Program-made: the position numbers and the translations under genes | Shown: positions 33,719 through 54,530 of the stretch, one piece after another | Layout of the letters: the number at the start of each line of letters is the position of its first letter | How positions within the stretch are numbered: the stretch's first letter is position 1 | Notes under the pieces: generated by a model | What the model was told of the DNA's origin: nothing | Seen by the model: the letters and a program-made list of their open reading frames with translations, nothing else | Databases searched by the model: none | From: Antedon mediterranea | Lineage: Eukaryota > Echinodermata > Crinoidea > Comatulida > Antedonidae | Length of the DNA: 64,000 bases | Assembly (NCBI RefSeq): GCF_964355755.1 | Contig: NC_092677.1 | Coordinates: forward strand, 7,011,001-7,075,000 | Reading direction: 5' to 3'

Positions 33719-33785
33719 TTTGGCCTGAATAATGGCAAAGGTTGAACCTTGAGTGTGGCTCTTTAGAACGCTCGGCAATCCGGAC
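33719..33785 (-). pseudogene. Truncated tRNA-Leu at the left edge of the array
   Basis: Only the 5' exon and most of the intron of the array tRNA are present, with several substitutions (such as GTGTGG for GTCTGG on the plus strand). The 3' exon is missing and unrelated sequence lies on that side. A second tRNA-free piece of the spacer follows at about 33850-33910. Confidence 0.75.
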
Positions 33786-33970
33786 AACTGATAGAGTTGC
33801 ATATAAACTTAATTATATTTTTAATATAGCCTACAGTGGTCTGAAATTATAGACAACTGATAGATGGACGAGTTGCAAATAAACTTAATTACATTTTGAA
33901 TATACAGTGGTCTCAATTTATAGACTAAAATTTGATGAGTGGAGATACGAAAACTTAATTTTAGAAAGTC

Positions 33971-34087
33971 TGTCAGAAGTGGGATTCGAACCCACGCCTC
34001 CATTCGGAGACCAGAATACCCGTTTGCCTGAATAGTGGCAAGGTTAAACCTTGAGTCTGGCGCCTTAGACCGCTCGGCCATCCTGAC
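33971..34087 (-). tRNA. tRNA-Leu-CAA: tRNA-Leu(CAA) unit 1
   Basis: Consensus exons, intron I2, 3' tract TTTCT. First full-length unit beside ADAT1. Confidence 0.9.
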
Positions 34088-34210
34088 AACTGATATCTGA
34101 ATGAGTTGCAAATAAACTTAATTACATTTTGAATATACAGTGGTCTGAAATTATAGACTAAAATTTGATTAGTGGAGATATATGGTACGAAAAATTAATT
34201 TTAAAAAGTC

Positions 34211-34327
34211 TGTCAGAAGTTGGATTTGTACCCACGCCTCCATTCGGAGACCAGAATACCCTTTTGCCTGAATAGTGGCAAGGTTGAACCTTGAGTCTGG
34301 CGCCTTAGACCGCTCGGCCATCCTGAC
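34211..34327 (-). pseudogene. tRNA-Leu(CAA) unit 2, T arm degenerate
   Basis: The T-stem has a mismatch and the T-loop reads TACAAAT, losing U55 and G57. Intron I1, T5. Confidence 0.7.
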
Positions 34328-34450
34328 AACTGATAGATGGACGAGTTGCAAATAAATTTAATTATGTTTTGAATATACAGTGGTCTCAATTTATAGACTA
34401 AAATTTGATGAGTGGAGATATAAAGTACGAAAACTTAATTTTAGAAAGTC

Positions 34451-34567
34451 TGTCAGATGTGGGATTCGAACCCACGCCTCCATTCGGAGACCAGAGTACC
34501 CGTTTGCCTGAATAGTGGCAAGGTTAAACCTTGAGTCTGGTGCCTTAGACCGCTCGGCCATCCTGAC
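34451..34567 (-). tRNA. tRNA-Leu-CAA: tRNA-Leu(CAA) unit 3, variant
   Basis: Acceptor pair 7:66 becomes A:A, loop base 38 is C, and one D-arm-adjacent G is A. Intron I2, TTTCT. First unit of the 3318-bp duplication. Confidence 0.65.
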
Positions 34568-34685
34568 AACTGATATCTGAATGAGTTGCAAATAAACTTA
34601 ATTACATTTTGAATATACAGTGGTCTCAAATTATAGACTAACCTTTTTTATGAGTGAAGATATGAAAACTTAATTTTAAAAAGTC

Positions 34686-34794
34686 TGTCAGAAGTGGGTT
34701 TCGAACCCACGCCTCCATTCGGAGACCAGAATACCCTTTTACCTGAATAGTGGCAAGGTTGAACCTTGAGTCTGCCGCCTTAGACCATCCTGAC
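34686..34794 (-). pseudogene. tRNA-Leu unit 4, class B
   Basis: 109 bp: the 8-nt D-arm deletion removes most of the A-box. The T arm also has one loop change. Intron I3, T5. Confidence 0.8.
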
Positions 34795-34912
34795 AACTGA
34801 TAGCTGAACGAGTTGCAAATAAACTTAATTATATTTTGAATATACAGTGGTCTCAAATTATAGAGTAACCTCTTTTATGAGTGAAGATATGAAAACTTAA
34901 TTTTAAAAAGTC

Positions 34913-35029
34913 TGTCAGAAGTGGGATTCGAACCCACGCCTCCATTCGGAGACCAGAATACCCTTTTGCCTGAATAGTAGCAAGGTTGAACCTTGAGTCT
35001 GGCGCCTTAGACCGCTCGGCCATCCTGAC
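34913..35029 (-). tRNA. tRNA-Leu-CAA: tRNA-Leu(CAA) unit 5
   Basis: Consensus exons, intron I1 with one change (tagtag), T5. Confidence 0.9.
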
Positions 35030-35152
35030 AACTGATATCTGAACGAGTTGCAAATAAACTTAATTATATTTTGAATATACAGTGGTCTAAAATTATAGAC
35101 TAAAATTTTATGAATGAAGATATAAAGTACGAAAACTTAATTTAAAAAAGTC

Positions 35153-35269
35153 TGTCAGAAGTGGGATTCGAACCCACGCCTCCATTCGGAGACCAGAATA
35201 CCCGTTTGCCTGAATAGTGGCAAGGTTAAACCTTGAGTCTGGCGCCTTAGACCGCTCGGCCATCCTGAC
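35153..35269 (-). tRNA. tRNA-Leu-CAA: tRNA-Leu(CAA) unit 6
   Basis: Consensus exons, intron I2, T6. Confidence 0.9.
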
Positions 35270-35394
35270 AACTGATATCTGAATGAGTTGCAAATAAACT
35301 TAATTACATTTTGAATATACACAGTGGTCTGAAATTATAGACAAAAATTTGATGAGTGAAGATATAAGGTACGAGAACTTAATTTTAAAAAGTC

Positions 35395-35511
35395 TGTCAG
35401 AAGTGGAATTCGAACCCACGCCTCCATTCGGAGACCAGAATACCCTTTTACCTGAATAGTGGCAAGGTTGAACCTTGAGTCTGGCGCCTTAGACCGCTCG
35501 GCCATCCTGAC
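35395..35511 (-). tRNA. tRNA-Leu-CAA: tRNA-Leu(CAA) unit 7
   Basis: One change makes a G:U pair in the T-stem; otherwise intact. Intron I3, T5. Founder of a subtype seen again in units 21, 30, 41, 48 and 53. Confidence 0.85.
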
Positions 35512-35634
35512 AACTGATATCTGAACGAGTTGCAAATAAACTTAATTATATTTTGAATATACAGTGGTCTAAAATTATAGACAAAAATTTGATGAGTGAA
35601 GATATAAATTACGAAAACTTAATTTTAGAAAGTC

Positions 35635-35751
35635 TGTCAGAAGTGGGATTCAAACCTACGCCTCCATTAGGAGACCAGAATATCCTTTTTTCTGAAAAAT
35701 GGCAAGGTTAAACCTTGAGTCTGGCGCCTTAGACCGCTCGACCATCCTGGC
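35635..35751 (-). pseudogene. tRNA-Leu unit 8, class C
   Basis: All class C changes are present, with tract TTTCT. The anticodon is still CAA. Confidence 0.7.
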
Positions 35752-35874
35752 AACTGATAGATGGACGAGTTGCAAATAAACTTAATTACATTTTGAATAT
35801 ACAGTGGTTTGAAATTATAGACTAACATTTGATGAGTGAAGATATAAAGTAGGAAAACTTAATTTTAAAAAGTC

Positions 35875-35983
35875 TGTCAGAAGTGGTATTCAAACCCACC
35901 CCTCCATTCGGAGACCAGAATACCATTTTGCCTGAATAGTGGCGAGGTTGAACCTTGAGTCTGCCGCCTTAGACCATCCTGAC
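35875..35983 (-). pseudogene. tRNA-Leu unit 9, class B'
   Basis: D-arm deletion plus T-loop and T-stem changes (ggtattcaaacccaccc on the plus strand). T5. Confidence 0.8.
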
Positions 35984-36101
35984 AACTGATAGCTGAACGA
36001 GTTGCAAATAAACTTCATTATATTTTGAATATACAGTGGTCTCAAATTATAGACTAACCTTTTTTATGAGTGAAGATATGAAAACTTAATTTTTAAAAGT
36101 C

Positions 36102-36218
36102 TGTCAGAAGTGGGATTCGAACCCACGCCTCCATTCGGAGACCAGAATACCCTTTTGCCTGAATAGTGGCAAGGTTGAACCTTGAGTCTGGCGCCTTAGA
36201 CCGCTCGGCCATCCTGAC
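36102..36218 (-). tRNA. tRNA-Leu-CAA: tRNA-Leu(CAA) unit 10
   Basis: Consensus exons, intron I1, minimal T4 terminator. Confidence 0.9.
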
Positions 36219-36341
36219 AACTGATAGATGGACGAGTTGCAAATAAATTTAATTATGTTTTGAATATACAGTGGTCTCAATTTATAGACTAAAATTTGAT
36301 GAGTGGAGATATAAAGTACGAAAACTTAATTTTAGAAAGTC

Positions 36342-36458
36342 TGTCAGAAGTGGGATTCGAACCCACGCCTCCATTCGGAGACCAGAATACCCGTTTGCCT
36401 GAATAGTGGCAAGGTTGAACCTTGAGTCTGGCGCCTTAGACCGCTCGGCCATCCTGAC
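36342..36458 (-). tRNA. tRNA-Leu-CAA: tRNA-Leu(CAA) unit 11
   Basis: Consensus exons. The intron is a mix of I2 (cgtttgcc) and I1 (gttgaacc). TTTCT. Confidence 0.9.
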
Positions 36459-36581
36459 AACTGATAGATGGACGAGTTGCAAATAAACTTAATTATGTTT
36501 TGAATATAAAGTGGTCTCAATTTATAGACTAAAATTTGATGAGTGAAGATATAAAGTACGAAAACTTAATTTTAGAAAGTC

Positions 36582-36698
36582 TGTCAGAAGTGGGATTCGA
36601 ACCCACGCCTCCATTCGGAGACCAGAATACCCGTTTGCCTGAATAGTGGCAAGGTTAAACCTTGAGTCTGGCGCCTTAGACCGCTCGGCCATCCTGAC
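36582..36698 (-). tRNA. tRNA-Leu-CAA: tRNA-Leu(CAA) unit 12
   Basis: Consensus exons, intron I2, TTTCT. Confidence 0.9.
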
Positions 36699-36821
36699 AA
36701 CTGATATCTGAACGAGTTGCAAATAAATTTAATTATATTTTGAATATACAGTGGTCTAAAATTATAGACTAAAATTTGATGAGTGAAGATATAAAGTACG
36801 AAAACTTAATTTAAAAAAGCC

Positions 36822-36930
36822 TGTCAGAAGTGGGATTCGAACCCACGCCTCCATTCGGAGACCAGAATACCCTTTTGCCTGAATAGTGGCAAGGTTGAAC
36901 CTTGAGTCTGCCGCCTTAGACCATCCTGAC
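36822..36930 (-). pseudogene. tRNA-Leu unit 13, class B
   Basis: D-arm deletion with an otherwise intact T arm. Intron I1, T6. Confidence 0.8.
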
Positions 36931-37048
36931 AACTGATAGCTGAACGAGTTGCAAATAAACTTCATTATATTTTGAATATACAGTGGTCTCAAATTATAGA
37001 CTAACCTTTTTTATGAGTGAAGATATGAAAACTTAATTTTAAAAAGTC

Positions 37049-37165
37049 TGTCAGAAGTGGGATTCGAACCGACGCCTCCATTCGGAGACCAGAATACCCT
37101 TTTGCCTGAATAGTGGCAAGGTTGAACCTTGAGTCTGGCGCCTTAGACCGCTCGGCCATCCTGAC
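37049..37165 (-). tRNA. tRNA-Leu-CAA: tRNA-Leu(CAA) unit 14, T-stem mismatch
   Basis: A single change gives a C:C mismatch in the T-stem. Its duplicate, unit 28, lacks the change. Intron I1, T5. Confidence 0.7.
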
Positions 37166-37288
37166 AACTGATAGATGGACGAGTTGCAAATAAATTTAAT
37201 TATGTTTTGAATATACAGTGGTCTCAATTTATAGACTAAAATTTGATGAGTGAAGATATAAAGTACGAAAACTTAATTTTAGAAACTC

Positions 37289-37405
37289 TGTCAGAAGTGG
37301 GATTCAAACCTACGCCTCCATTAGGAGACCAGAATATCCTTTTTTCTGAAAAATGGCAAGGTTAAACCTTGAGTCTGGCGCCTTAGACCGCTCGACCATC
37401 CTGGC
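37289..37405 (-). pseudogene. tRNA-Leu unit 15, class C
   Basis: Class C with an extra change just 3' of the gene (actctgtc on the plus strand). TTTCT. Confidence 0.7.
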
Positions 37406-37528
37406 AACTGATAGATGGACGAGTTGCAAATAAACTTAATTACATTTTGAATATACAGTGGTTTGAAATTATAGACAAAAATTTGATGAGTGGAGATATA
37501 AGGTACGAGAACTTAATTTTAAAAAGTC

Positions 37529-37645
37529 TGTCAGAAGTGGGATTCGAACCCACGCCTCCATTCGGAGACCAGAATACCCTTTTGCCTGAATAGTTGCAAG
37601 GTTGAACCTTGAGTCTGGCGCCTTAGACCGCTCGGCCATCCTGAC
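37529..37645 (-). tRNA. tRNA-Leu-CAA: tRNA-Leu(CAA) unit 16
   Basis: Consensus exons, I1 intron with tagttgc, T5. Sits at the join of the two 3318-bp blocks. Confidence 0.9.
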
Positions 37646-37768
37646 AACTGATAGATGGACGAGTTGCAAATAAATTTAATTATGTTTTGAATATACAGTG
37701 GTCTCAATTTATAGACTAAAATTTGATGAGTGGAGATATAAAGTACGAAAACTTAATTTTAGAAAGTC

Positions 37769-37885
37769 TGTCAGATGTGGGATTCGAACCCACGCCTCCA
37801 TTCGGAGACCAGAGTACCCGTTTGCCTGAATAGTGGCAAGGTTAAACCTTGAGTCTGGTGCCTTAGACCGCTCGGCCATCCTGAC
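37769..37885 (-). tRNA. tRNA-Leu-CAA: tRNA-Leu(CAA) unit 17, variant
   Basis: Copy of unit 3 at +3318, with the same 7:66 mismatch and base-38 change. Confidence 0.65.
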
Positions 37886-38003
37886 AACTGATATCTGAAT
37901 GAGTTGCAAATAAACTTAATTACATTTTGAATATACAGTGGTCTCAAATTATAGACTAACCTTTTTTATGAGTGAAGATATGAAAACTTAATTTTAAAAA
38001 GTC

Positions 38004-38112
38004 TGTCAGAAGTGGGTTTCGAACCCACGCCTCCATTCGGAGACCAGAATACCCTTTTACCTGAATAGTGGCAAGGTTGAACCTTGAGTCTGCCGCCTTA
38101 GACCATCCTGAC
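38004..38112 (-). pseudogene. tRNA-Leu unit 18, class B
   Basis: Copy of unit 4 at +3318. Confidence 0.8.
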
Positions 38113-38230
38113 AACTGATAGCTGAACGAGTTGCAAATAAACTTAATTATATTTTGAATATACAGTGGTCTCAAATTATAGAGTAACCTCTTTTATGAGT
38201 GAAGATATGAAAACTTAATTTTAAAAAGTC

Positions 38231-38347
38231 TGTCAGAAGTGGGATTCGAACCCACGCCTCCATTCGGAGACCAGAATACCCTTTTGCCTGAATAGTAGCA
38301 AGGTTGAACCTTGAGTCTGGCGCCTTAGACCGCTCGGCCATCCTGAC
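38231..38347 (-). tRNA. tRNA-Leu-CAA: tRNA-Leu(CAA) unit 19
   Basis: Copy of unit 5 at +3318; consensus exons, T5. Confidence 0.9.
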
Positions 38348-38470
38348 AACTGATATCTGAACGAGTTGCAAATAAACTTAATTATATTTTGAATATACAG
38401 TGGTCTAAAATTATAGACTAAAATTTTATGAATGAAGATATAAAGTACGAAAACTTAATTTAAAAAAGTC

Positions 38471-38587
38471 TGTCAGAAGTGGGATTCGAACCCACGCCTC
38501 CATTCGGAGACCAGAATACCCGTTTGCCTGAATAGTGGCAAGGTTAAACCTTGAGTCTGGCGCCTTAGACCGCTCGGCCATCCTGAC
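38471..38587 (-). tRNA. tRNA-Leu-CAA: tRNA-Leu(CAA) unit 20
   Basis: Copy of unit 6 at +3318; consensus exons, T6. Confidence 0.9.
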
Positions 38588-38712
38588 AACTGATATCTGA
38601 ATGAGTTGCAAATAAACTTAATTACATTTTGAATATACACAGTGGTCTGAAATTATAGACAAAAATTTGATGAGTGAAGATATAAGGTACGAGAACTTAA
38701 TTTTAAAAAGTC

Positions 38713-38829
38713 TGTCAGAAGTGGAATTCGAACCCACGCCTCCATTCGGAGACCAGAATACCCTTTTACCTGAATAGTGGCAAGGTTGAACCTTGAGTCT
38801 GGCGCCTTAGACCGCTCGGCCATCCTGAC
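38713..38829 (-). tRNA. tRNA-Leu-CAA: tRNA-Leu(CAA) unit 21
   Basis: Copy of unit 7 at +3318; T-stem G:U, I3, T5. Confidence 0.85.
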
Positions 38830-38952
38830 AACTGATATCTGAACGAGTTGCAAATAAACTTAATTATATTTTGAATATACAGTGGTCTAAAATTATAGAC
38901 AAAAATTTGATGAGTGAAGATATAAATTACGAAAACTTAATTTTAGAAAGTC

Positions 38953-39069
38953 TGTCAGAAGTGGGATTCAAACCTACGCCTCCATTAGGAGACCAGAATA
39001 TCCTTTTTTCTGAAAAATGGCAAGGTTAAACCTTGAGTCTGGCGCCTTAGACCGCTCGACCATCCTGGC
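38953..39069 (-). pseudogene. tRNA-Leu unit 22, class C
   Basis: Copy of unit 8 at +3318. Confidence 0.7.
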
Positions 39070-39192
39070 AACTGATAGATGGACGAGTTGCAAATAAACT
39101 TAATTACATTTTGAATATACAGTGGTTTGAAATTATAGACTAACATTTGATGAGTGAAGATATAAAGTAGGAAAACTTAATTTTAAAAAGTC

Positions 39193-39301
39193 TGTCAGAA
39201 GTGGTATTCAAACCCACCCCTCCATTCGGAGACCAGAATACCATTTTGCCTGAATAGTGGCGAGGTTGAACCTTGAGTCTGCCGCCTTAGACCATCCTGA
39301 C
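39193..39301 (-). pseudogene. tRNA-Leu unit 23, class B'
   Basis: Copy of unit 9 at +3318. Confidence 0.8.
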
Positions 39302-39419
39302 AACTGATAGCTGAACGAGTTGCAAATAAACTTCATTATATTTTGAATATACAGTGGTCTCAAATTATAGACTAACCTTTTTTATGAGTGAAGATATGAA
39401 AACTTAATTTTTAAAAGTC

Positions 39420-39536
39420 TGTCAGAAGTGGGATTCGAACCCACGCCTCCATTCGGAGACCAGAATACCCTTTTGCCTGAATAGTGGCAAGGTTGAACCT
39501 TGAGTCTGGCGCCTTAGACCGCTCGGCCATCCTGAC
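39420..39536 (-). tRNA. tRNA-Leu-CAA: tRNA-Leu(CAA) unit 24
   Basis: Copy of unit 10 at +3318; consensus exons, T4. Confidence 0.9.
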
Positions 39537-39659
39537 AACTGATAGATGGACGAGTTGCAAATAAATTTAATTATGTTTTGAATATACAGTGGTCTCAATT
39601 TATAGACTAAAATTTGATGAGTGGAGATATAAAGTACGAAAACTTAATTTTAGAAAGTC

Positions 39660-39776
39660 TGTCAGAAGTGGGATTCGAACCCACGCCTCCATTCGGAGAC
39701 CAGAATACCCGTTTGCCTGAATAGTGGCAAGGTTGAACCTTGAGTCTGGCGCCTTAGACCGCTCGGCCATCCTGAC
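39660..39776 (-). tRNA. tRNA-Leu-CAA: tRNA-Leu(CAA) unit 25
   Basis: Copy of unit 11 at +3318; consensus exons, TTTCT. Confidence 0.9.
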
Positions 39777-39899
39777 AACTGATAGATGGACGAGTTGCAA
39801 ATAAACTTAATTATGTTTTGAATATAAAGTGGTCTCAATTTATAGACTAAAATTTGATGAGTGAAGATATAAAGTACGAAAACTTAATTTTAGAAAGTC

Positions 39900-40016
39900 T
39901 GTCAGAAGTGGGATTCGAACCCACGCCTCCATTCGGAGACCAGAATACCCGTTTGCCTGAATAGTGGCAAGGTTAAACCTTGAGTCTGGCGCCTTAGACC
40001 GCTCGGCCATCCTGAC
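39900..40016 (-). tRNA. tRNA-Leu-CAA: tRNA-Leu(CAA) unit 26
   Basis: Copy of unit 12 at +3318; consensus exons, TTTCT. Confidence 0.9.
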
Positions 40017-40139
40017 AACTGATATCTGAACGAGTTGCAAATAAATTTAATTATATTTTGAATATACAGTGGTCTAAAATTATAGACTAAAATTTGATGA
40101 GTGAAGATATAAAGTACGAAAACTTAATTTAAAAAAGCC

Positions 40140-40248
40140 TGTCAGAAGTGGGATTCGAACCCACGCCTCCATTCGGAGACCAGAATACCCTTTTGCCTGA
40201 ATAGTGGCAAGGTTGAACCTTGAGTCTGCCGCCTTAGACCATCCTGAC
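40140..40248 (-). pseudogene. tRNA-Leu unit 27, class B
   Basis: Copy of unit 13 at +3318. Confidence 0.8.
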
Positions 40249-40366
40249 AACTGATAGCTGAACGAGTTGCAAATAAACTTCATTATATTTTGAATATACA
40301 GTGGTCTCAAATTATAGACTAACCTTTTTTATGAGTGAAGATATGAAAACTTAATTTTAAAAAGTC

Positions 40367-40483
40367 TGTCAGAAGTGGGATTCGAACCCACGCCTCCATT
40401 CGGAGACCAGAATACCCTTTTGCCTGAATAGTGGCAAGGTTGAACCTTGAGTCTGGCGCCTTAGACCGCTCGGCCATCCTGAC
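40367..40483 (-). tRNA. tRNA-Leu-CAA: tRNA-Leu(CAA) unit 28
   Basis: Duplicate of unit 14 with the T-stem mismatch absent; consensus exons, I1, T5. Confidence 0.9.
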
Positions 40484-40606
40484 AACTGATAGATGGACGA
40501 GTTGCAAATAAATTTAATTATGTTTTGAATATACAGTGGTCTCAATTTATAGACTAAAATTTGATGAGTGAAGATATAAAGTACGAAAACTTAATTTTAG
40601 AAACTC

Positions 40607-40723
40607 TGTCAGAAGTGGGATTCAAACCTACGCCTCCATTAGGAGACCAGAATATCCTTTTTTCTGAAAAATGGCAAGGTTAAACCTTGAGTCTGGCGCC
40701 TTAGACCGCTCGACCATCCTGGC
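40607..40723 (-). pseudogene. tRNA-Leu unit 29, class C
   Basis: Copy of unit 15 at +3318; TTTCT. Confidence 0.7.
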
Positions 40724-40846
40724 AACTGATAGATGGACGAGTTGCAAATAAACTTAATTACATTTTGAATATACAGTGGTTTGAAATTATAGACAAAAAT
40801 TTGATGAGTGGAGATATAAGGTACGAGAACTTAATTTTAAAAAGTC

Positions 40847-40963
40847 TGTCAGAAGTGGAATTCGAACCCACGCCTCCATTCGGAGACCAGAATACCCTTT
40901 TACCTGAATAGTGGCAAGGTTGAACCTTGAGTCTGGCGCCTTAGACCGCTCGGCCATCCTGAC
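40847..40963 (-). tRNA. tRNA-Leu-CAA: tRNA-Leu(CAA) unit 30
   Basis: Unit-7 subtype (T-stem G:U, I3, T5). Here the correspondence with unit 16 breaks, marking the end of the 3318-bp duplication. Confidence 0.85.
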
Positions 40964-41086
40964 AACTGATATCTGAACGAGTTGCAAATAAACTTAATTA
41001 TATTTTGAATATACAGTGGTCTAAAATTATAGACTAAAATTTGATGAGTGAAGATATAAATTACGAAAACTTAATTTTAGAAAGTC

Positions 41087-41203
41087 TGTCAGAAGTGGGA
41101 TTCAAACCTACGCCTCCATTAGGAGACCAGAATATCCTTTTTTCTGAAAAATGGCAAGGTTAAACCTTGAGTCTGGCGCCTTAGACCGCTCGACCATCCT
41201 GGC
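41087..41203 (-). pseudogene. tRNA-Leu unit 31, class C
   Basis: Class C, TTTCT. Confidence 0.7.
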
Positions 41204-41326
41204 AACTGATAGATGGACGAGTTGCAAATAAACTTAATTACATTTTGAATATACAGTGGTTTGAAATTATAGACTAACATTTGATGAGTGAAGATATAAA
41301 GTAGGAAAACTTAATTTTAAAAAGTC

Positions 41327-41435
41327 TGTCAGAAGTGGTATTCAAACCCACCCCTCCATTCGGAGACCAGAATACCCTTTTGCTTGAATAGTGGCGAGGT
41401 TGAACCTTGAGTCTGCCGCCTTAGACCATCCTGAC
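41327..41435 (-). pseudogene. tRNA-Leu unit 32, class B'
   Basis: Class B' with one extra intron change (gcttgaat). T5. Confidence 0.8.
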
Positions 41436-41553
41436 AACTGATAGCTGATCGAGTTGCAAATAAACTTCATTATATTTTGAATATACAGTGGTCTCAAATT
41501 ATAGACTAACCTTTTTTATGAGTGAAGATATGAAAACTTAATTTTAAAAAGTC

Positions 41554-41670
41554 TGTCAGAAGTGGGATTCGAACCCACGCCTCCATTCGGAGACCAGAAT
41601 ACCCGTTTGCCTGAATAGTGGCAAGGTTAAACCTTGAGTCTGGCGCCTTAGACCGCTCGACCATCCTGAC
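41554..41670 (-). tRNA. tRNA-Leu-CAA: tRNA-Leu(CAA) unit 33, D-stem variant
   Basis: C11 to T in the D-stem leaves a possible G:U pair; otherwise consensus. Intron I2, T5. Confidence 0.8.
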
Positions 41671-41795
41671 AACTGATATCTGAATGAGTTGCAAATAAAC
41701 TTAATTACATTTTGAATATACACAGTGGTCTGAAATTATAGACAAAAATTTAATGAGTGAAGATATAAAGTACAAAAACTTAATTTTAAAAAGTC

Positions 41796-41912
41796 TGTCA
41801 GAAGTGGGATTCGAACCCACGCCTCCATTCGGAGACCAGAATACCCTTTTGCCTGAATAGTGGCAAGGTTGAACCTTGAGTCTGGCGCCTTAGACCGCTC
41901 GGCCATCCTGAC
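41796..41912 (-). tRNA. tRNA-Leu-CAA: tRNA-Leu(CAA) unit 34
   Basis: Consensus exons, I1, T5. Within the block repeated at +5705. Confidence 0.9.
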
Positions 41913-42035
41913 AACTGATATCTGAACGAGTTGCAAATAAATTTAATTATATTTTGAATATACAGTGGTCTAAAATTATAGACTAAAATTTGATGAGTGA
42001 AGATATAAGGTACGAAAACTTAATTTAAAAAAGCC

Positions 42036-46311: not shown

Positions 46312-46428
46312 TGTCAGAAGTGGAATTCGAACCCACGCCTCCATTCGGAGACCAGAATACCCTTTTACCTGAATAGTGGCAAGGTTGAACCTTGAGTCTG
46401 GCGCCTTAGACCGCTCGGCCATCCTGAC
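46312..46428 (-). tRNA. tRNA-Leu-CAA: tRNA-Leu(CAA) unit 53
   Basis: Unit-7 subtype; T-stem G:U, I3, T5. Confidence 0.85.
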
Positions 46429-46551
46429 AACTGATATCTGAACGAGTTGCAAATAAACTTAATTATATTTTGAATATACAGTGGTCTAAAATTATAGACT
46501 AAAATTTGATGAGTGAAGATATAAATTACGAAAACTTAATTTAAAAAAGCC

Positions 46552-46668
46552 TGTCAGAAGTGGGATTCGAACCCACGCCTCCATTCGGAGACCAGAATAT
46601 CCTTTTTTCTGAAAAATGGCAAGGTTAAACCTTGAGTCTGGCGCCTTAGACCGCTCGACCATCCTGGC
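46552..46668 (-). pseudogene. tRNA-Leu unit 54, class A/C recombinant
   Basis: The 3' exon is consensus with T6, but the intron, D-stem and acceptor 5' strand are class C. The switch falls near the 3' splice site, which suggests recombination or gene conversion between classes. Confidence 0.7.
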
Positions 46669-46791
46669 AACTGATAGATGGACGAGTTGCAAATAAACTT
46701 AATTACATTTTGAATATACAGTGGTTTGAAATTATAGACTAACATTTGATGAGTGAAGATATAAAGTAGGAAAACTTAATTTTAAAAAGTC

Positions 46792-46900
46792 TGTCAGAAG
46801 TGGTATTCAAACCCACCCCTCCATTCGGAGACCAGAATACCCTTTTGCCTGAATAGTGGCGAGGTTGAACCTTGAGTCTGCCGCCTTAGACCATCCTGAC
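46792..46900 (-). pseudogene. tRNA-Leu unit 55, class B'
   Basis: Class B', T5. Confidence 0.8.
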
Positions 46901-47018
46901 AACTGATAGCTGAACGAGTTGCAAATAAACTTCATTATATTTTGAATATACAGTGGTCTCAAATTATAGACTAACCTTTTTTATGAGTGAAGATATGAAA
47001 ACTTAATTTTAAAAAGTC

Positions 47019-47135
47019 TGTCAGAAGTGGGATTCGAACCCACGCCTCCATTCGGAGACCAGAATACCCTTTTGCCTGAATAGTGGCAAGGTTGAACCTT
47101 GAGTCTGGCGCCTTAGACCGCTCGGCCATCCTGAC
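47019..47135 (-). tRNA. tRNA-Leu-CAA: tRNA-Leu(CAA) unit 56
   Basis: Consensus exons, I1, T5. Confidence 0.9.
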
Positions 47136-47258
47136 AACTGATAGATGGACGAGTTGCAAATAAATTTAATTATGTTTTGAATATACAGTGGTCTCAATTT
47201 ATAGACCAAAATTTGATGAGTGGAGATATAAAGTACGAAAACTTAATTTTAGAAAGTC

Positions 47259-47375
47259 TGTCAGAAGTGGGATTCGAACCCACGCCTCCATTCGGAGACC
47301 AGAATACCCGTTTGCCTGAATAGTGGCAAGGTTAAACCTTGAGTCTGGCGCCTTAGACCGCTCGACCATCCTGAC
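47259..47375 (-). tRNA. tRNA-Leu-CAA: tRNA-Leu(CAA) unit 57, D-stem variant
   Basis: C11 to T. Intron I2, TTTCT. Corresponds to unit 33 at +5705. Confidence 0.8.
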
Positions 47376-47500
47376 AACTGATATCTGAATGAGTTGCAAA
47401 TAAACTTAATTACATTTTGAATATACACAGTGGTCTGAAATTATAGACAAAAATTTGATGAGTGAAGATATAAAGTACAAAAACTTAATTTTAAAAAGTC

Positions 47501-47617
47501 TGTCAGAAGTGGGATTCGAACCCACGCCTCCATTCGGAGACCAGAATACCCTTTTGCCTGAATAGTGGCAAGGTTGAACCTTGAGTCTGGCGCCTTAGAC
47601 CGCTCGGCCATCCTGAC
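47501..47617 (-). tRNA. tRNA-Leu-CAA: tRNA-Leu(CAA) unit 58
   Basis: Consensus exons, I1, T5; unit 34 at +5705. Confidence 0.9.
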
Positions 47618-47740
47618 AACTGATATCTGAACGAGTTGCAAATAAATTTAATTATATTTTGAATATACAGTGGTCTAAAATTATAGACTAAAATTTGATG
47701 AGTGAAGATATAAGGTACGAAAACTTAATTTAAAAAAGCC

Positions 47741-47857
47741 TGTCAGAAGTGGGATTCGAACCCACGCCTCCATTCGGAGACCAGAATACCCTTTTGCCTG
47801 AATAGTGGCAAGGTTGAACCTTGAGTCTGGCGCCTTAGACCGCTCGGCCATCCTGAC
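47741..47857 (-). tRNA. tRNA-Leu-CAA: tRNA-Leu(CAA) unit 59
   Basis: Consensus exons, I1, T6; unit 35 at +5705. Confidence 0.9.
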
Positions 47858-47980
47858 AACTGATAGATGGACGAGTTGCAAATAAACTTAATTATATTTT
47901 GAATATACAGTGGTCTAAAATTATAGACTAAAATTTGATGAGTGGAGATATAAAGTACGAAAACTTAATTTTAAAAAGTC

Positions 47981-48097
47981 TGTCAGAAGTGGGATTCGAA
48001 CCCACGCCTCCATTCGGAGACCAGAATACCCTTTTGCCTGAATAGTGGCAAGGTTGAACCTTGAGTCTGGCGCCTTAGACCGCTCGGCCATCCTGAC
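47981..48097 (-). tRNA. tRNA-Leu-CAA: tRNA-Leu(CAA) unit 60
   Basis: Consensus exons, I1, T5; unit 36 at +5705. Confidence 0.9.
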
Positions 48098-48220
48098 AAC
48101 TGATAGATGCACGAGTTGCAAATAAACTTAATTATATTTGGAATATACAGTGGTCTCAAATTATAGACTAACATTTGATGAGTGAAGATATAAAGTACAA
48201 AATCTTAAGTTTAAAAAGTC

Positions 48221-48337
48221 TGTCAGAAGTGGGATTCGAACCCACGCCTCCATTCAAAGACCAGAATACCCTTTTGCCTGAATAGTGGCAAGGTTGAACC
48301 TTGAGTCTGGCGCCTTAGACCGCTCGGCCATCCTGAC
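48221..48337 (-). tRNA. tRNA-Leu-CAA: tRNA-Leu(CAA) unit 61, variable-arm variant
   Basis: Two changes (cattcaaag on the plus strand) weaken the long variable-arm stem; the rest is consensus. T5. Unit 37 at +5705. Confidence 0.75.
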
Positions 48338-48460
48338 AACTGATATCTGAACGAGTTGCAAATAAATTTAATTATATTTTGAATATACAGTGGTCTAAAA
48401 TTATAGACTAAAATTTGATGAGTGAAGATATAAAGTACGAAAACTTAATTTAAAAAAGCC

Positions 48461-48569
48461 TGTCAGAAGTGGGATTCGAACCCACGCCTCCATTCGGAGA
48501 CCAGAATACCCTTTTGCCTGAATAGTGGCAAGGTTGAACCTTGAGTCTGCCGCCTTAGACCATCCTGAC
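48461..48569 (-). pseudogene. tRNA-Leu unit 62, class B
   Basis: D-arm deletion, T6; unit 38 at +5705. Confidence 0.8.
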
Positions 48570-48687
48570 AACTGATAGCTGAACGAGTTGCAAATAAACT
48601 TCATTATATTTTGAATATACAGTGGTCTCAAATTATAGACTAACCTTTTTTATGAGTGAAGATATGAAAACTTAATTTTAAAAAGTC

Positions 48688-48804
48688 TGTCAGAAGTGGG
48701 ATTCGAACCCACGCCTCCATTCGGAGACCAGAATACCCTTTTGCCTGAATAGTGGCAAGGTTGAACCTTGAATCTGGCGCCTTAGACCGCTCGGCCATCC
48801 TGAC
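48688..48804 (-). tRNA. tRNA-Leu-CAA: tRNA-Leu(CAA) unit 63
   Basis: C32 to T in the anticodon loop, otherwise consensus. T5. Confidence 0.85.
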
Positions 48805-48927
48805 AACTGATAGATGGACGAGTTGCAAATAAATTTAATTATGTTTTGAATATACAGTGGTCTCAATATATAGACTAAAATTTGATAAGTGGAGATATAA
48901 AGTACGAAAACTTAATTTTAGAAAGTC

Positions 48928-49044
48928 TGTCAGAAGTGGGATAAGAACCCACGCCTCCAGTCGGAGACCAGAATACCCGTTTGCCTGAATAGTGGCAAGG
49001 TTAAACCTTGAGTCTGGCGCCTTAGACCGCTCGACCATCCTGAC
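48928..49044 (-). pseudogene. tRNA-Leu unit 64, T-loop degenerate
   Basis: The T-loop reads TTCTTAT, losing G57 and A58 of the B-box. A variable-arm change and C11 to T are also present. TTTCT. Confidence 0.7.
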
Positions 49045-49169
49045 AACTGATATCTGAATGAGTTGCAAATAAACTTAATTACATTTTGAATATACACAGT
49101 GGTCTGAAATTATAGACAAAAATTTGATGAGTGAAGATATAAAGTACAAAAACTTAATTTTAAAAAGTC

Positions 49170-49286
49170 TGTCAGAAGTGGGATTCGAACCCACGCCTCC
49201 ATTCGGAGACCAGAATACCCTTTAGCCTGAATAGTGGCAAGGTTGAACCTTGAGTCTGGCGCCTTAGACCGCTCGGCCATCCTGAC
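49170..49286 (-). tRNA. tRNA-Leu-CAA: tRNA-Leu(CAA) unit 65
   Basis: Consensus exons, intron with ctttagcc, T5. Confidence 0.9.
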
Positions 49287-49409
49287 AACTGATATCTGAA
49301 CGAGTTGCAAATAAATTTAATTATATTTTGAATATACAGTGGTCTAAAATTATAGACTAAAATTTGATGACTGAAGATATAAAGTACGAAAACTTAATTT
49401 AAAAAAGCC

Positions 49410-49526
49410 TGTCAGAAGTGGGATTCGAACCCACGCCTCCATTCGGAGACCAGAATACCCTTTTGCCTGAATAGTGGCAAGGTTGAACCTTGAGTCTGGC
49501 GCCTTAGACCGCTCGGCCATCCTGAC
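49410..49526 (-). tRNA. tRNA-Leu-CAA: tRNA-Leu(CAA) unit 66
   Basis: Consensus exons, I1, T6. Start of the 960-bp repeat. Confidence 0.9.
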
Positions 49527-49649
49527 AACTGATAGATGGACGAGTTGCAAATAAACTTAATTATATATTGAATATACAGTGGTCTAAAATTATAGACTAA
49601 AATTTGATGAGTGGAGATATAAAGTACGAAAACTTAATTTTAGAAAGTC

Positions 49650-49766
49650 TGTCAGAAGTGGGATTCGAACTCACGCCTCCATTCGGAGACCAGAATACCC
49701 TTTTACCTGAATAGTGGCAAGGTTGAACCTTGAGTCTGGCGCCTTAGACCGCTCGGCCATCCTGAC
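49650..49766 (-). tRNA. tRNA-Leu-CAA: tRNA-Leu(CAA) unit 67, T-stem mismatch
   Basis: An A:C mismatch in the T-stem (gaactcac on the plus strand). I3, TTTCT. Confidence 0.7.
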
Positions 49767-49889
49767 AACTGATAGATGGACTAGTTGCAAATAAACTTAA
49801 TTATATTTTGAATATACAGTGGTCTCAAATTATAGACTAAAATTTGATGAGTGAAGATATAAAGTACGAAAACTTAATTTTAAAAAGTC

Positions 49890-50006
49890 TGTCAGAAGTG
49901 GGATTCGAACCCACGCCTCCATTCGGAGACCAGAATACCCTTTTGCCTGAATAGTGGCAAGGTTGAACCTTGAGTCTGGCGCCTTAGACCGCTTGGCCAT
50001 CCTGAC
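49890..50006 (-). tRNA. tRNA-Leu-CAA: tRNA-Leu(CAA) unit 68
   Basis: One D-arm change (gcttggcc on the plus strand), otherwise consensus. I1, T5. Confidence 0.85.
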
Positions 50007-50129
50007 AACTGATAGATGCACGAGTTGCAAATAAACTTAATTATATTTGGAATATACAGTGGTCTCAAATTATAGACTAACATTTGATGAGTGAAAATAT
50101 AAAGTACAAAAACTTAAGTTTAAAAAGTC

Positions 50130-50246
50130 TGTCAGAAGTGGGATTCGAACCCACGCCTCCATTCGGAGACCAGAATACCCTTTTGCCTGAATAGTGGCAA
50201 GGTTGAACCTTGAGTCTGGCGCCTTAGACCGCTCGGCCATCCTGAC
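50130..50246 (-). tRNA. tRNA-Leu-CAA: tRNA-Leu(CAA) unit 69
   Basis: Consensus exons, I1, T5. Confidence 0.9.
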
Positions 50247-50369
50247 AACTGATATCTGAACGAGTTGCAAATAAATTTAATTATATTTTGAATATACAGT
50301 GGTCTAAAATTATAGACTAAAATTTGATGACTGAAGATATAAAGTACGAAAACTTAATTTAAAAAAGCC

Positions 50370-50486
50370 TGTCAGAAGTGGGATTCGAACCCACGCCTCC
50401 ATTCGGAGACCAGAATACCCTTTTGCCTGAATAGTGGCAAGGTTGAACCTTGAGTCTGGCGCCTTAGACCGCTCGGCCATCCTGAC
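50370..50486 (-). tRNA. tRNA-Leu-CAA: tRNA-Leu(CAA) unit 70
   Basis: Consensus exons, I1, T6; copy of unit 66 at +960. Confidence 0.9.
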
Positions 50487-50609
50487 AACTGATAGATGGA
50501 CGAGTTGCAAATAAACTTAATTATATATTGAATATACAGTGGTCTAAAATTATAGACTAAAATTTGATAAGTGGAGATATAAAGTACGAAAACTTAATTT
50601 TAGAAAGTC

Positions 50610-50726
50610 TGTCAGAAGTGGGATTCGAACTCACGCCTCCATTCGGAGACCAGAATACCCTTTTACCTGAATAGTGGCAAGGTTGAACCTTGAGTCTGGC
50701 GCCTTAGACCGCTCGGCCATCCTGAC
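50610..50726 (-). tRNA. tRNA-Leu-CAA: tRNA-Leu(CAA) unit 71, T-stem mismatch
   Basis: Same A:C mismatch as unit 67, at +960. TTTCT. Confidence 0.7.
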
Positions 50727-50849
50727 AACTGATAGATGGACTAGTTGCAAATAAACTTAATTATATTTTGAATATACAGTGGTCTCAAATTATAGACTAA
50801 AATTTGATGAGTGAAGATATAAAGTACGAAAACTTAATTTTAGAAAGTC

Positions 50850-50966
50850 TGTCAGAAGTGGGATTCGAACCCACGTCTCCATTAGGAGACCAGAATATCC
50901 TTTTTTCTAAAAAATGGCAAGGTTAACCCCTGAGTCTGGCGCCTTAGACCGCTCGGCCATCCTGAC
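50850..50966 (-). tRNA. tRNA-Leu unit 72, anticodon CAG
   Basis: The anticodon loop reads CTCAGG, so the anticodon is CAG (codon CUG) instead of CAA. The intron is class C-like but the T arm, D arm and acceptor stem are near consensus. The change alters the CCTTG/CAAGG intron pairing. TTTCT. Confidence 0.6.
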
Positions 50967-51089
50967 AACTGATAGAGGGAAGAGTTGCAAATAAACTTAA
51001 TTACATTTTGAATATACAGTGGTTTGAAATTATAGACTAACGTTTGATGAGTGAAGATATAAAGTAGAAAAACTTAATTTTAAAAAGTC

Positions 51090-51198
51090 TGTCAGAAGTG
51101 GGATTCAAACCCACCCCTCCATTCGGTGACCAGAATACCCTTTTGCCTGAATAGTGGCAAGGTTGAACCTTGAGTCTGCCGCCTTAGACCATCCTGAC
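51090..51198 (-). pseudogene. tRNA-Leu unit 73, class B'
   Basis: D-arm deletion, T-loop change and a variable-arm change (cggtgacc). T5. Confidence 0.8.
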
Positions 51199-51323
51199 AA
51201 CTGATAGCTGAACGAGTTGCAAATAAACTTAATTATATTTTGAATATACAGTGGTCTCAAATTATAGACTAACCTTTTTTATGAGTGAAGATATGAAGTA
51301 CGAAAACTTAATTTTAAAAAGTC

Positions 51324-51440
51324 TGTCAGAAGTGGGATTCGAACCCATGCCTCCATTCGGAGACCAGAATACCCTTTTACCTGAATAGTGGCAAGGTTGA
51401 ACCTTGAGTCTGGCGCCTTAGACCGCTCGGCCATCCTGAA
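51324..51440 (-). pseudogene. tRNA-Leu unit 74, acceptor end mutated
   Basis: G1 is changed to T and the T-stem has an A:C mismatch. I3, T5. Confidence 0.65.
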
Positions 51441-51563
51441 AACTGATATCTGAATGAGTTGCAAATAAACTTAATTACATTTTGAATATACAGTGGTCGG
51501 AAATTATAGACTAAAATTTGATGAGTTAAGATATAAGGTACAAAATCTTAATTTTAAAAAGTC

Positions 51564-51680
51564 TGTCAGAAGTGGGATTCGAACCCACGCCTCCATTCGG
51601 AGACCAGAATACCCTTTTGCCTGAATAGTGGCAAGGTTGAACCTTGAGTCTGGCGCCTTAGACCGCTCGGCCATCCTGAC
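51564..51680 (-). tRNA. tRNA-Leu-CAA: tRNA-Leu(CAA) unit 75
   Basis: Consensus exons, I1, T5. Confidence 0.9.
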
Positions 51681-51803
51681 AACTGATAGATGCACGAGTT
51701 GCAAATAAACTTAATTATGTTTTGAATATACAGTGGTCTCAAATTATAGACTAAAATTTGATGAGTGAAGATATAAAGTACGAAAACTTAATTTTAAAAA
51801 GTC

Positions 51804-51920
51804 TGTCAGAAGTGGGATTCGAACCCACGCCTCCATTCGAAGACCAGAATACCCTTTTGCCTGAATAGTGGCAAGGTTCAACCTTGAGTCTGGCGCCTTA
51901 GACCGCTCGGCCATCCTGAC
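51804..51920 (-). tRNA. tRNA-Leu-CAA: tRNA-Leu(CAA) unit 76
   Basis: One variable-arm transition and one intron change (gttcaacc). T5. Confidence 0.85.
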
Positions 51921-52043
51921 AACTGATAGATGCACGAGTTGCAAATAAACTTAATTATATTTGGAATATACAGTGGTCTCAAATTATAGACTAACATTTG
52001 ATGAGTGAAGATATAAAGTACAAAAACTTAAGTTTAAAAAGTC

Positions 52044-52160
52044 TGTCAGAAGTGGGATTCGAACCCACGCCTCCATTCGGAGACCAGAAAACCCGTTTGC
52101 CTGAATAGTGGCAAGGTTAAACCTTGAGTCTGGCGCCTTAGACCGCTCGGCCATCCTGAC
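52044..52160 (-). tRNA. tRNA-Leu-CAA: tRNA-Leu(CAA) unit 77
   Basis: Consensus exons, I2 with one change near the 3' splice site, T5. Confidence 0.9.
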
Positions 52161-52283
52161 AACTGATATGTGAATGAGTTGCAAATAAACTTAATGACAT
52201 TTTGAATATACAGTGGTCTCAAATTATAGACTAAAATTTGATGAGTGAAGATATAAAGTACGAAAACTTAATTTTAAAAAGTC

Positions 52284-52399
52284 TGTCAGAAGTGGGATTC
52301 GAACCCACGCCTCCATTCGGAGACCAGAATACCCTTTACCTGAATAGTGGCAAGGTTGAACCTTGAGTCTGGCGCCTTAGACCGCTCGGCCATCCTGAC
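52284..52399 (-). tRNA. tRNA-Leu-CAA: tRNA-Leu(CAA) unit 78
   Basis: Consensus exons; the intron is one base shorter (32 nt). T5. Confidence 0.88.
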
Positions 52400-52522
52400 A
52401 ACTGATATCTGAATGAGTTGCAAATAAACTTAATTACATTTTGAATATACAGTGGTCTCAAATTATAGACTAAAATTTGATGAGTGAAGATATAAAGTAC
52501 GAAAACTTAATTTTAAAAAGTC

Positions 52523-52639
52523 TGTCAGAAGTGGGATTCGAACCCACGCCTCCATTCGGAGACCAGAACACCCTTTTACCTGAATAGTGGCAAGGTTGAA
52601 CCTTGAGTCTGGCCCCTTAGACCGCTCGGCCATCCTGAC
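52523..52639 (-). tRNA. tRNA-Leu-CAA: tRNA-Leu(CAA) unit 79, D-stem mismatch
   Basis: C25 to G breaks a D-stem pair. I3-like intron, T5. Confidence 0.7.
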
Positions 52640-52762
52640 CACTGATAGATGCACGAGTTGCAAATAAACTTAATTATATTTGGAATATACAGTGGTCTCA
52701 AATTATAGACTAACATTTGATGAGTGAAGATATAAAGTACAACAACTTAAGTTTAAAAAGTC

Positions 52763-52882
52763 TGTCAGAAGTGGGATTCGAACCCACGCCTCCATTCGGA
52801 GACCAGAATACCCTTTTGCCTGAATAGTAGCAAGGTTGAACAACCTTGAGTCTGGCGCCTTAGACCACTCGGCCATCCTGAC
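52763..52882 (-). tRNA. tRNA-Leu-CAA: tRNA-Leu(CAA) unit 80, longer intron
   Basis: 120 bp, with a 3-nt insertion near the 5' end of the intron. A D-loop C to T makes the loop GAGTGG, as in vertebrate tRNA-Leu. T5. Confidence 0.85.
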
Positions 52883-53006
52883 AACTGATAGATGGATGAG
52901 TTGCAAATAAACTTAATTATGTTTTGAATATAAAGTGGTCTCAATTTATAGACTACAATTTTGATGAGTGAAGATATAAAGTACGAATACTTAATTTTAG
53001 AAAGTC

Positions 53007-53123
53007 TGTCAGAAGTGGGATTCGAACCCACGCCTCCATTCGGAGACCAGAATACCCGTTTGCCTGAATAGTGGCAAGGTTAAACCTTGAGTCTGGCACC
53101 TTAGACCGCTCGGCCATCCTGAC
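53007..53123 (-). tRNA. tRNA-Leu-CAA: tRNA-Leu(CAA) unit 81
   Basis: C25 to T leaves a G:U D-stem pair. I2, TTTCT. Confidence 0.8.
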
Positions 53124-53246
53124 AACTGATATATGAATGAGTTGCAAATAAACTTAATGACATTTTGAATATACAGTGGTCTCAAATTATAGACTAAAAT
53201 TTGATGAGTGAAGATATAAAGTACGAAAACTTAATTTTAAAAAGTC

Positions 53247-53362
53247 TGTCAGAAGTGGGATTCGAACCCACGCCTCCATTCGGAGACCAGAATACCCTTT
53301 ACCTGAATAGTGGCAAGGTTGAACCTTGAGTCTGGCGCCTTAGACCGCTCGGCCATCCTGAC
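53247..53362 (-). tRNA. tRNA-Leu-CAA: tRNA-Leu(CAA) unit 82
   Basis: Consensus exons, intron one base shorter, T5. Sibling of unit 78. Confidence 0.88.
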
Positions 53363-53485
53363 AACTGATATCTCAATGAGTTGCAAATAAACTTAATTAC
53401 ATTTTGAATATACAGTGATCTCAAATTATAGACTAAAATTTGATGAGTGAAGATATAAAGTACGAAAACTTAATTTTAAAAAGTC

Positions 53486-53602
53486 TGTCAGAAGTGGGAT
53501 TCGAACCCACGCCTCCATTCGGAGACCAGAATACCCTTTTACCTGAATAGTGGCAAGGTTGAACCTTGAGTCTGGCGCCTTAGACCGCTCGGCCTACCTG
53601 AC
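53486..53602 (-). tRNA. tRNA-Leu-CAA: tRNA-Leu(CAA) unit 83, U8 lost
   Basis: Adjacent changes at 7 and 8 (ggcctacctgac on the plus strand) replace the near-invariant U8 with A. I3, T5. Function doubtful. Confidence 0.6.
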
Positions 53603-53725
53603 AACTGATATCTGAATGAGTTGCAAATAAATTTAATTACATTTTGAATATACAGTGGTCTCAAATTATAGACTAAAATTTGATGAGTGGAGATATAAGG
53701 TACGAAAACTTAATTTTAAAAAGTC

Positions 53726-53842
53726 TGTCAGAACTGGGATTCGTACCCACGCCTCCATTCGGAGACCAAAATACCCTTTTGCCTGAATAGTGGCAAGGTT
53801 GAACTTTGAGTCTGGCGGCTTAGACCGCTCGGCCATCCTGAC
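53726..53842 (-). pseudogene. tRNA-Leu unit 84, multiply mutated
   Basis: T-loop U55 to A, a D-stem change, and G37 to A. The anticodon is still CAA. T5. Confidence 0.65.
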
Positions 53843-53965
53843 AACTGATAGATGGACGAGTTGCAAATAAACTTAATTATGTTTTGAATATACAGTGGTC
53901 TCAAATTATAGACTAAAATTTGATGAGTGGAGATATAAAGTACGAAAACTTAATTTTAGAACGTC

Positions 53966-54082
53966 TGTCAGAAGTGGGATTCGAACCCACGCCTCCATTC
54001 GGAGACCAGAATACCCGTTTGCCTGAATAGTGGCAAGGTTGAACCTTGGGTCTGGCGCCTTAGACCGCTCGGCCATCCTGAC
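53966..54082 (-). tRNA. tRNA-Leu-CAA: tRNA-Leu unit 85, U33 lost
   Basis: The near-invariant U33 before the anticodon is C, and the 3' T run is broken (GTTCT). The arms are otherwise intact. Function doubtful. Confidence 0.6.
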
Positions 54083-54207
54083 AACTGATAGCTAAACGAG
54101 TTGCAAATAAACTTAGTTATATTTTGAATATACAGTGGTCTCAAATTATAGACTAACCTTTTTTATGAGTGAAGATATGAAGTACGAAAACTTAATTTTA
54201 AAAAGTC

Positions 54208-54324
54208 TGTCAGAAGTGGGATTCGAACCCACGCCTCCATTCGGAGACCAGAATACTCTTTTGCCTGAATAGTAGCAAGGTTGAACCTTGAGTCTGGCGC
54301 CTTAGACCGCTCGGCCATCCTGAC
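54208..54324 (-). tRNA. tRNA-Leu-CAA: tRNA-Leu(CAA) unit 86
   Basis: Consensus exons with one intron change, T5. Last full-length unit. Confidence 0.88.
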
Positions 54325-54472
54325 AACTGATAGAAGAATGTGTTGCAAATAAACTTAATTATATTTTGATTATACCAGGGAGTACAACTCCCTGATTATA
54401 CAGTGGTCTCAAATTATAGACTAACTTTTGATGATGAGTAAAAAAAACCGGTACGAAAAAGTAATAAGGAGA

Positions 54473-54530
54473 ATTTGTAAGAAGTAAGATTCGAACCCAC
54501 GTCTCCTTTTACTAAATAGTGGAAATGTCG
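54473..54530 (-). pseudogene. Decayed tRNA-Leu fragment at the right edge of the array
   Basis: Only the T-arm part (AAGATTCGAACCCACGTCTCC on the plus strand) and a trace of the intron (AATAGTGG) remain. The preceding spacer contains an insertion with CAGGGAGT...ACTCCCTG dyad symmetry (54376-54395). Confidence 0.7.

Follow-up and report, generated by a model that had tools for sequence, protein, structure and literature searches.

A tandem array of intron-containing tRNA-Leu(CAA) genes in the feather star Antedon mediterranea: intact copies, damaged copies and a possible role in tRNA dosage

A stretch of 64,000 nucleotides from the genome of the feather star Antedon mediterranea, a crinoid echinoderm and thus a relative of sea urchins (RefSeq assembly GCF_964355755.1, contig NC_092677.1, positions 7,011,001 to 7,075,000), hereafter the window, carries a large tandem array of transfer RNA (tRNA) genes. 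From their sequence features, these are assigned as true nuclear tRNA-Leu(CAA) genes having an intron, internal promoter sequences for RNA polymerase III (Pol III) and a T-run terminator. About half of the copies keep the sequence features that transcription by Pol III and removal of the intron require. The reading that we favor, with our confidence evenly balanced, is that of a tRNA-Leu(CAA) dosage array with birth and death of copies, a peak of use in oogenesis being its least certain part.

Extent of the array and identity of its genes

An earlier note on the window had described 86 full-length copies, arranged head-to-tail on one strand between positions 33719 and 54520. The number and the arrangement are confirmed. 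Tandem Repeats Finder gives a period of 240 with 86.2 copies at 33852-54375, and a score, 33497, for which chance is no issue. In an Rfam search of the whole window, RF00005 is matched 76 times with a score that reaches the gathering cut-off, always on the minus strand and within the array; outside the array, the window has no tRNA match at that level. Finally, a fuzzy scan with the 5' exon finds 87 copies, corresponding to 86 units and one degenerate copy near 33.79 kb (U87), which was excluded ahead of all unit counts. The extent is also right, since broken tRNA copies terminate both edges (Table 1). The term "full-length" has to be qualified: the 86 units exist, but in 13 of them 8 nt are missing from the D arm and A box. 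The copy number used throughout is that given by the assembly.

The start-to-start spacing is 226-244 bp for 85 intervals and 307 bp for the final one, ahead of the degenerate left-edge copy. The upstream spacer of the first full copy on the SHCBP1 side (U01) contains an insertion of roughly 26 bp at 54374-54400, with a hairpin-like repeat AGGGAGT...ACTCCCT; the other units have no further insertion of this kind, because their spacings leave no room for it. The nucleosome repeat of sea urchin sperm is long, about 240 bp. The 240-bp unit (33852-54375) is near this value, which may be coincidence. With copies of the same tRNA spaced by 226-244 bp on the minus strand, the array is a homogeneous tandem tRNA gene (tDNA) cluster according to the definition of PMC2888827, namely same tRNA, neighbors less than 1000 nt apart and same strand.

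In gene orientation, each unit is made up of an AT-rich spacer, a 38-nt 5' exon, an intron, a 46-nt 3' exon with a long variable arm, and a T-run. The exons have these lengths in 73 of the 86 units, called full-length below. The intron, located after position 37, measures 33 nt in 83 units, 32 nt in two and 36 nt in one. ARAGORN makes no tRNA prediction when run without introns. With introns it makes 70 predictions inside the array, some of them covering two copies, and the label Leu(CAA) is given to no more than one of them, because the program misplaces the anticodon. Anticodon identity was taken from the alignment of the units, in which CAA is found in 72 of the 73 full-length units. The identity proposed earlier, an intron-bearing tRNA-Leu(CAA), is thus borne out by the Rfam matches, by the anticodon and by the intron present in 86 of 86 units. 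All 24 pairs of a class-II cloverleaf are formed by 52 of the 73 full-length units; 57 of them agree with the A box consensus and 52 with the B box consensus. The first run of at least four T begins 3 nt past the gene in 61 of the 86 units and 17 nt past it in 24, so that two trailer lengths are predicted; one unit has no such run within 60 nt.

Intact copies, damaged copies and the case for a dosage array

A unit was considered as intact when it has the 24 stem pairs, the A box, the B box, the CAA anticodon and A73. By these structural criteria, 41 of the 86 units are intact, with 8 exon types and 11 intron variants among them. About 34 consensus copies had been counted in the earlier note. 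Indeed, 34 of the 86 units carry the modal exon pair, while 41 pass the structural test, which tolerates harmless changes. The 45 units that are not intact comprise 13 that share the loss of the same 8 nt from D arm and A box, and 32 with other lesions. All 13 units of the deletion class have an identical 5' exon, and their spacers are more alike within the class (identity 0.988) than to the rest (0.884). Hence, a single deletion event, multiplied afterwards, is the most likely origin of the class.

The intact units also keep the signals expected downstream of the gene and in the intron. A run of at least four T is found no farther than 60 nt from the gene in 85 of the 86 units; in 40 of the 41 intact ones, it is no farther than 30 nt. 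Studies of the tRNA splicing endonuclease describe a pair formed by the base at position 32 with the third-last base of the intron. Here, the partner of C32 is a G in 74 of the 86 units, including all 41 intact ones, and the 12 units devoid of this G are all non-intact by other tests. When the cloverleaf is imposed, three of four intron variants pair the CUC that opens the anticodon loop with GGG near the 3' splice site, where a three-base bulge is formed; the predicted form is bulge-helix-bulge-like.

Sequence diversity within the array points to constraint on the exons. The units are not independent of one another in the diversity statistics, in which mean diversity is 0.034 for exons and 0.080 for spacer plus intron over the 86 units (permutation p 0.002), and 0.033 vs. 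0.085 in a set of 35 units none of which are 98% alike (p 0.0007). Exon diversity is thus about 2.4-2.5-fold lower, also without near-duplicates. Sites with a variant in at least three units show the same contrast: 3 of 84 in exons vs. 28 of 137 elsewhere for the 35 non-redundant units (one-sided p 0.0002), and 8 of 84 vs. 32 of 137 for all 86 (p 0.0065). Removal of two dead classes gives a stronger contrast in the remaining 62 units (2 of 84 vs. 24 of 137), on which we do not rely, because dropping classes by their exon lesions biases the choice; the 35-unit set is preferred. Moreover, exon variants lean toward the rare ones, with 31 rare and 9 common variants vs. 43 and 36 at the other sites (one-sided p 0.011).

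The anatomy of the array, with 41 competent copies out of 86, less diverse exons, terminators and a splice structure, fits the dosage array that was one of the earlier proposals, and suggests the following mechanism. Competent copies would bind TFIIIC and TFIIIB via their internal A and B boxes and would be transcribed singly off the minus strand, each transcript ending at its own T-run. The tRNA splicing endonuclease would then cut the array precursors, and the spliced product would supply tRNA-Leu(CAA) for UUG codons. The array would be kept since the total dose matters and no single copy does. In the most speculative step, its use would peak in oogenesis and early embryos, as with zebrafish tRNAs of repetitive regions.

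It is also conceivable, with a probability that we place below even, that the array is mostly an inert tRNA satellite, in which unequal crossing-over shifts the copy number without benefit, the copies that are intact owe this to youth or luck, and tRNA-Leu(CAA) is supplied by genes elsewhere. The 45 non-intact units are consistent with this, as are the 8-nt deletion, which looks like one event amplified to 13 units, the spread of damaging variants to 6 to 17 units, and the occurrence of other tandem repeats (105 bp and 101 bp) within the same window. Against an inert satellite stand the lower diversity of exons relative to spacer and intron, which persists in non-redundant units, and the 41 copies in which boxes, stem pairs and splice pair are all kept together. 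The tRNA-based satellite put forward earlier also applies to the dead half of the array, which was spread in duplicated blocks.

Several observations nevertheless weigh against a dosage array. The number of variable sites is alike in exons and elsewhere, both over the 86 units (36 of 84 vs. 63 of 137, one-sided p 0.38) and in the 35 non-redundant ones (34 of 84 vs. 57 of 137). Rare exon variants break the structure at about the random rate, in 18 cases out of 31 where 168 of the 252 changes that are possible would do so (p 0.20), and 7 of the 9 common exon variants are damaging. Single copies would therefore be weakly protected, with damage free to spread, and the pattern reads as constraint on the gene set rather than on each copy. 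Uniform exons could also result from gene conversion by Leu(CAA) genes outside the array. As to splicing, the fourth folded intron variant, carried by 4 of the 41 intact units, adopts another fold, and unconstrained folding of 5 precursors yields no cloverleaf (z -1.3 to -2.3). Since the free folds are devoid of the cloverleaf and the splice form appears only when it is imposed, the evidence for the structure comes from pairing and comparison and not from free energy. UUG usage, proposed earlier as a check, gives no over-use, with 11 of 73 leucine codons in the ADAT1 and SHCBP1-like pieces, a very small sample whose exon ends are approximate. Finally, the SYY array of Arabidopsis (tRNA-Ser/Tyr/Tyr) is silent in most tissues (PMC12308677), which would also suit an inert satellite.

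Growth of the array and its surroundings

The relationships between units indicate growth through duplication, as DNA, of blocks of several units, dead genes included, as expected from unequal crossing-over. Block copies were found by exact-repeat extension. One of them, at a lag of about 14 units (Table 1), contains an exact repeat of 2793 bp with starts at 34278 and 37596. Further near-identical stretches of 1.5-2.8 kb occur at lags near 4, 5, 7, 11, 12, 23 to 25 units and more, and those recurring at several lags span about 6 to 16 units. Grouping of the 87 copies at 98% identity, a cut-off on which the groups depend, yields 30 groups, of which 14 have two or more members, in an order that is largely repeated. 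Ungrouped units make up 11 of the first 15 at the SHCBP1 side vs. 5 of the remaining 72 copies, a pattern as expected if unequal crossing-over homogenizes the interior. Copying took place at the DNA level, because the intron is retained in every unit and the consensus has no encoded CCA. The intron in 86 of 86 units, the head-to-tail order and the lack of any other Rfam tRNA match in the window at the gathering score argue against retroposition, and an origin as a tRNA-derived short interspersed element is rejected.

Because an exact 2793-bp repeat recurs 3318 bp apart, read length matters for the copy number, and the array could be an assembly artefact with an inflated number of copies or misjoined blocks. 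We regard this as the most improbable of the explanations considered. Adjoining units are diverged, with a mean identity of 0.913, the 20 longest near-matches listed contain 11 to 106 differing sites, and the closest ADAT1 protein is on a 28.6-Mb contig, which suggests a long-read chromosome assembly.

The flanks named earlier, ADAT1 and SHCBP1, are right. On the left, the A_deamin domain is accompanied by a best match to Antedon mediterranea ADAT1 (99% over 88% of the query), the next one being Anneissia japonica (47%). On the right, SHCBP_N is found with an E value of 2e-23 on the joined exon reading and of 0.0023 from the first exon alone. The tRNA genes are oriented opposite to both neighbors. 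A chromatin boundary element between the two genes had also been proposed earlier. Built of TFIIIC-binding tRNA genes, such a boundary or insulator would agree with the position of the array, whose first copy is separated from the start codon of SHCBP1 by about 0.5 kb. The many A and B boxes go in this direction, and a human tRNA repeat at 1q23.3 was proposed as a boundary (PMC4041453). Still, such a role seems highly improbable. With a core motif and at most 2 mismatches, the array has no CTCF-like match, the window total being 1 (at 9296) vs. 2.94 expected by chance, and the B box is intact in only 4 of the 13 copies with a deleted A box. Position is what the proposal retains.

Table 1. Coordinates in the window of the array, selected units and neighboring genes
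Feature	Positions	Strand	Remarks
Whole array	33719..54520	-	86 units of about 240 bp and a broken tRNA copy at either edge
Degenerate left-edge copy	33719..33795	-	5' exon and part of intron
Unit U86	33971..34087	-	Last full copy, ADAT1 side; structurally intact
Unit U79	35635..35751	-	Example of 10-unit class with acceptor stem, A box, B box and anticodon-intron pair changed
Unit U76	36342..36458	-	Example of modal exon sequence with intron
Unit U74	36822..36930	-	Example of 13-unit deletion class; 109 instead of 117 nt
Unit U01	54208..54324	-	First full copy, SHCBP1 side; structurally intact
Degenerate right-edge remnant	54470..54520	-	tRNA 3' half; read from sequence by eye
Block copy, lag about 14 units	34036..41131	.	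34036-37813 vs. 37354-41131; 33 mismatches in 3778 bp
ADAT1 gene	28216..33383	+	Left neighbor; Pfam A_deamin; exons mapped
SHCBP1-like gene	54837..58500	+	Right neighbor; start ATG 54837; approximate at its right end, with exon pieces put together by eye

Other repeats are found in the window. A Gypsy-type long terminal repeat (LTR) retrotransposon lies on the plus strand at 14460-19276, with two LTRs of about 210 bp that are 96% alike (14460-14669 and 19071-19276). It has reverse transcriptase, RNase H and integrase domains, with weaker gag and protease matches, and its coding part extends over more than one open stretch. A 105-bp tandem repeat (6.7 copies, 26588-27288), with related copies at 25.7-26.0 kb, is open on the minus strand and encodes a repeated stretch containing KPPVAPKP; the corresponding open reading frame, 26376-27479, has no Pfam match. 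An AT-rich satellite of period 101 (18.7 copies) runs from 62130 to the window end at 64000 and shows by eye an inverted repeat in its unit. A short dispersed repeat, 77-90% alike and in both orientations, occurs at 9493-9605, 56035-56177, 56807-56962 and 58012-58107.

Relationship to known tRNA gene arrays

With one isoacceptor, one strand, one unit type, and live and dead copies adjacent, the array is a clean test case, set up by nature, for tRNA gene dosage. Whether and when arrays of this giant type are in use becomes directly testable, as does the level at which selection acts, the total or the single copy. The intron variants distinguish groups of copies before splicing, and could serve as natural barcodes for the units in use if the maternal reading is true.

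Its size alone is not new, since tDNA clusters of fifty and more members are described in Nematostella and teleosts (PMC2888827) and tandem clusters of two to 110 genes in plants (PMC12652284). Searches of open-access text, in which most matches were judged by their listing, gave no second animal array that is as large, limited to a single isoacceptor and intron-bearing. Among the literature matches listed, none concerns nuclear tRNA arrays of echinoderms or crinoids by its title or the start of its abstract, and a paper with sea cucumber tRNA counts (PMC8580430) gave no match to "tandem" or "cluster". An open-access search for Xenopus oocyte tRNA repeats gave no match either.

Arrays outside animals share part of the features described here. 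In plant tandem clusters, same-anticodon copies are common, but the feather-star array is from an animal and is intron-bearing throughout (PMC12652284). The Arabidopsis SYY array, which is used in root-cap cells, also results from tandem duplication, has pseudogenes beside copies of better and of worse quality, and its tRNA-Tyr genes have introns that vary (PMC12308677). It differs by belonging to a plant, by its three genes per unit and by its encounter with heterochromatin (PMC12308677). Entamoeba has tandem arrays too, some of them made of a single tRNA. However, almost all tRNA genes are arrayed there and the copies are mostly uniform, with no clear pseudogenes reported (PMC2652664), whereas about half of the feather-star copies are broken.

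Among animals, the human variable tandem repeat at 1q23.3 is built of 7.3-kb GC-rich units carrying five tRNA genes and CTCF sites (PMC4041453), in contrast with a 240-bp AT-rich unit having one gene and no CTCF-like site found. The silk-gland tRNA-Ala cluster of Bombyx is, like the present array, an animal tandem cluster for a single amino acid. It differs in being tied to silk protein output (as cited in PMC12308677). The clusters of Nematostella and teleosts belong to the same size class, and parallel orientation is the rule in several of these species. Yet tRNA gene pairs are mostly heterogeneous in Nematostella and zebrafish (PMC2888827), whereas the feather-star array is homogeneous, limited to a single isoacceptor and intron-bearing.

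A functional parallel to a dosage array comes from zebrafish, in which many tRNA genes are located in repeats (PMC11417395, PMC2888827). The isodecoders of its eggs and early embryos map to highly repetitive regions, Leu-CAA is named among the groups that switch isodecoders, and tRNA dynamics are little linked to codon frequency over time (PMC11417395). By analogy, a role of the feather-star array in oogenesis is plausible. One step further, and unlikely in our view, it would be a dedicated source of tRNA-Leu(CAA) for the crinoid egg and early embryo, apart from dispersed somatic genes, so that a zebrafish-like split between early and late tRNA genes would either have arisen independently or be deuterostome-wide.

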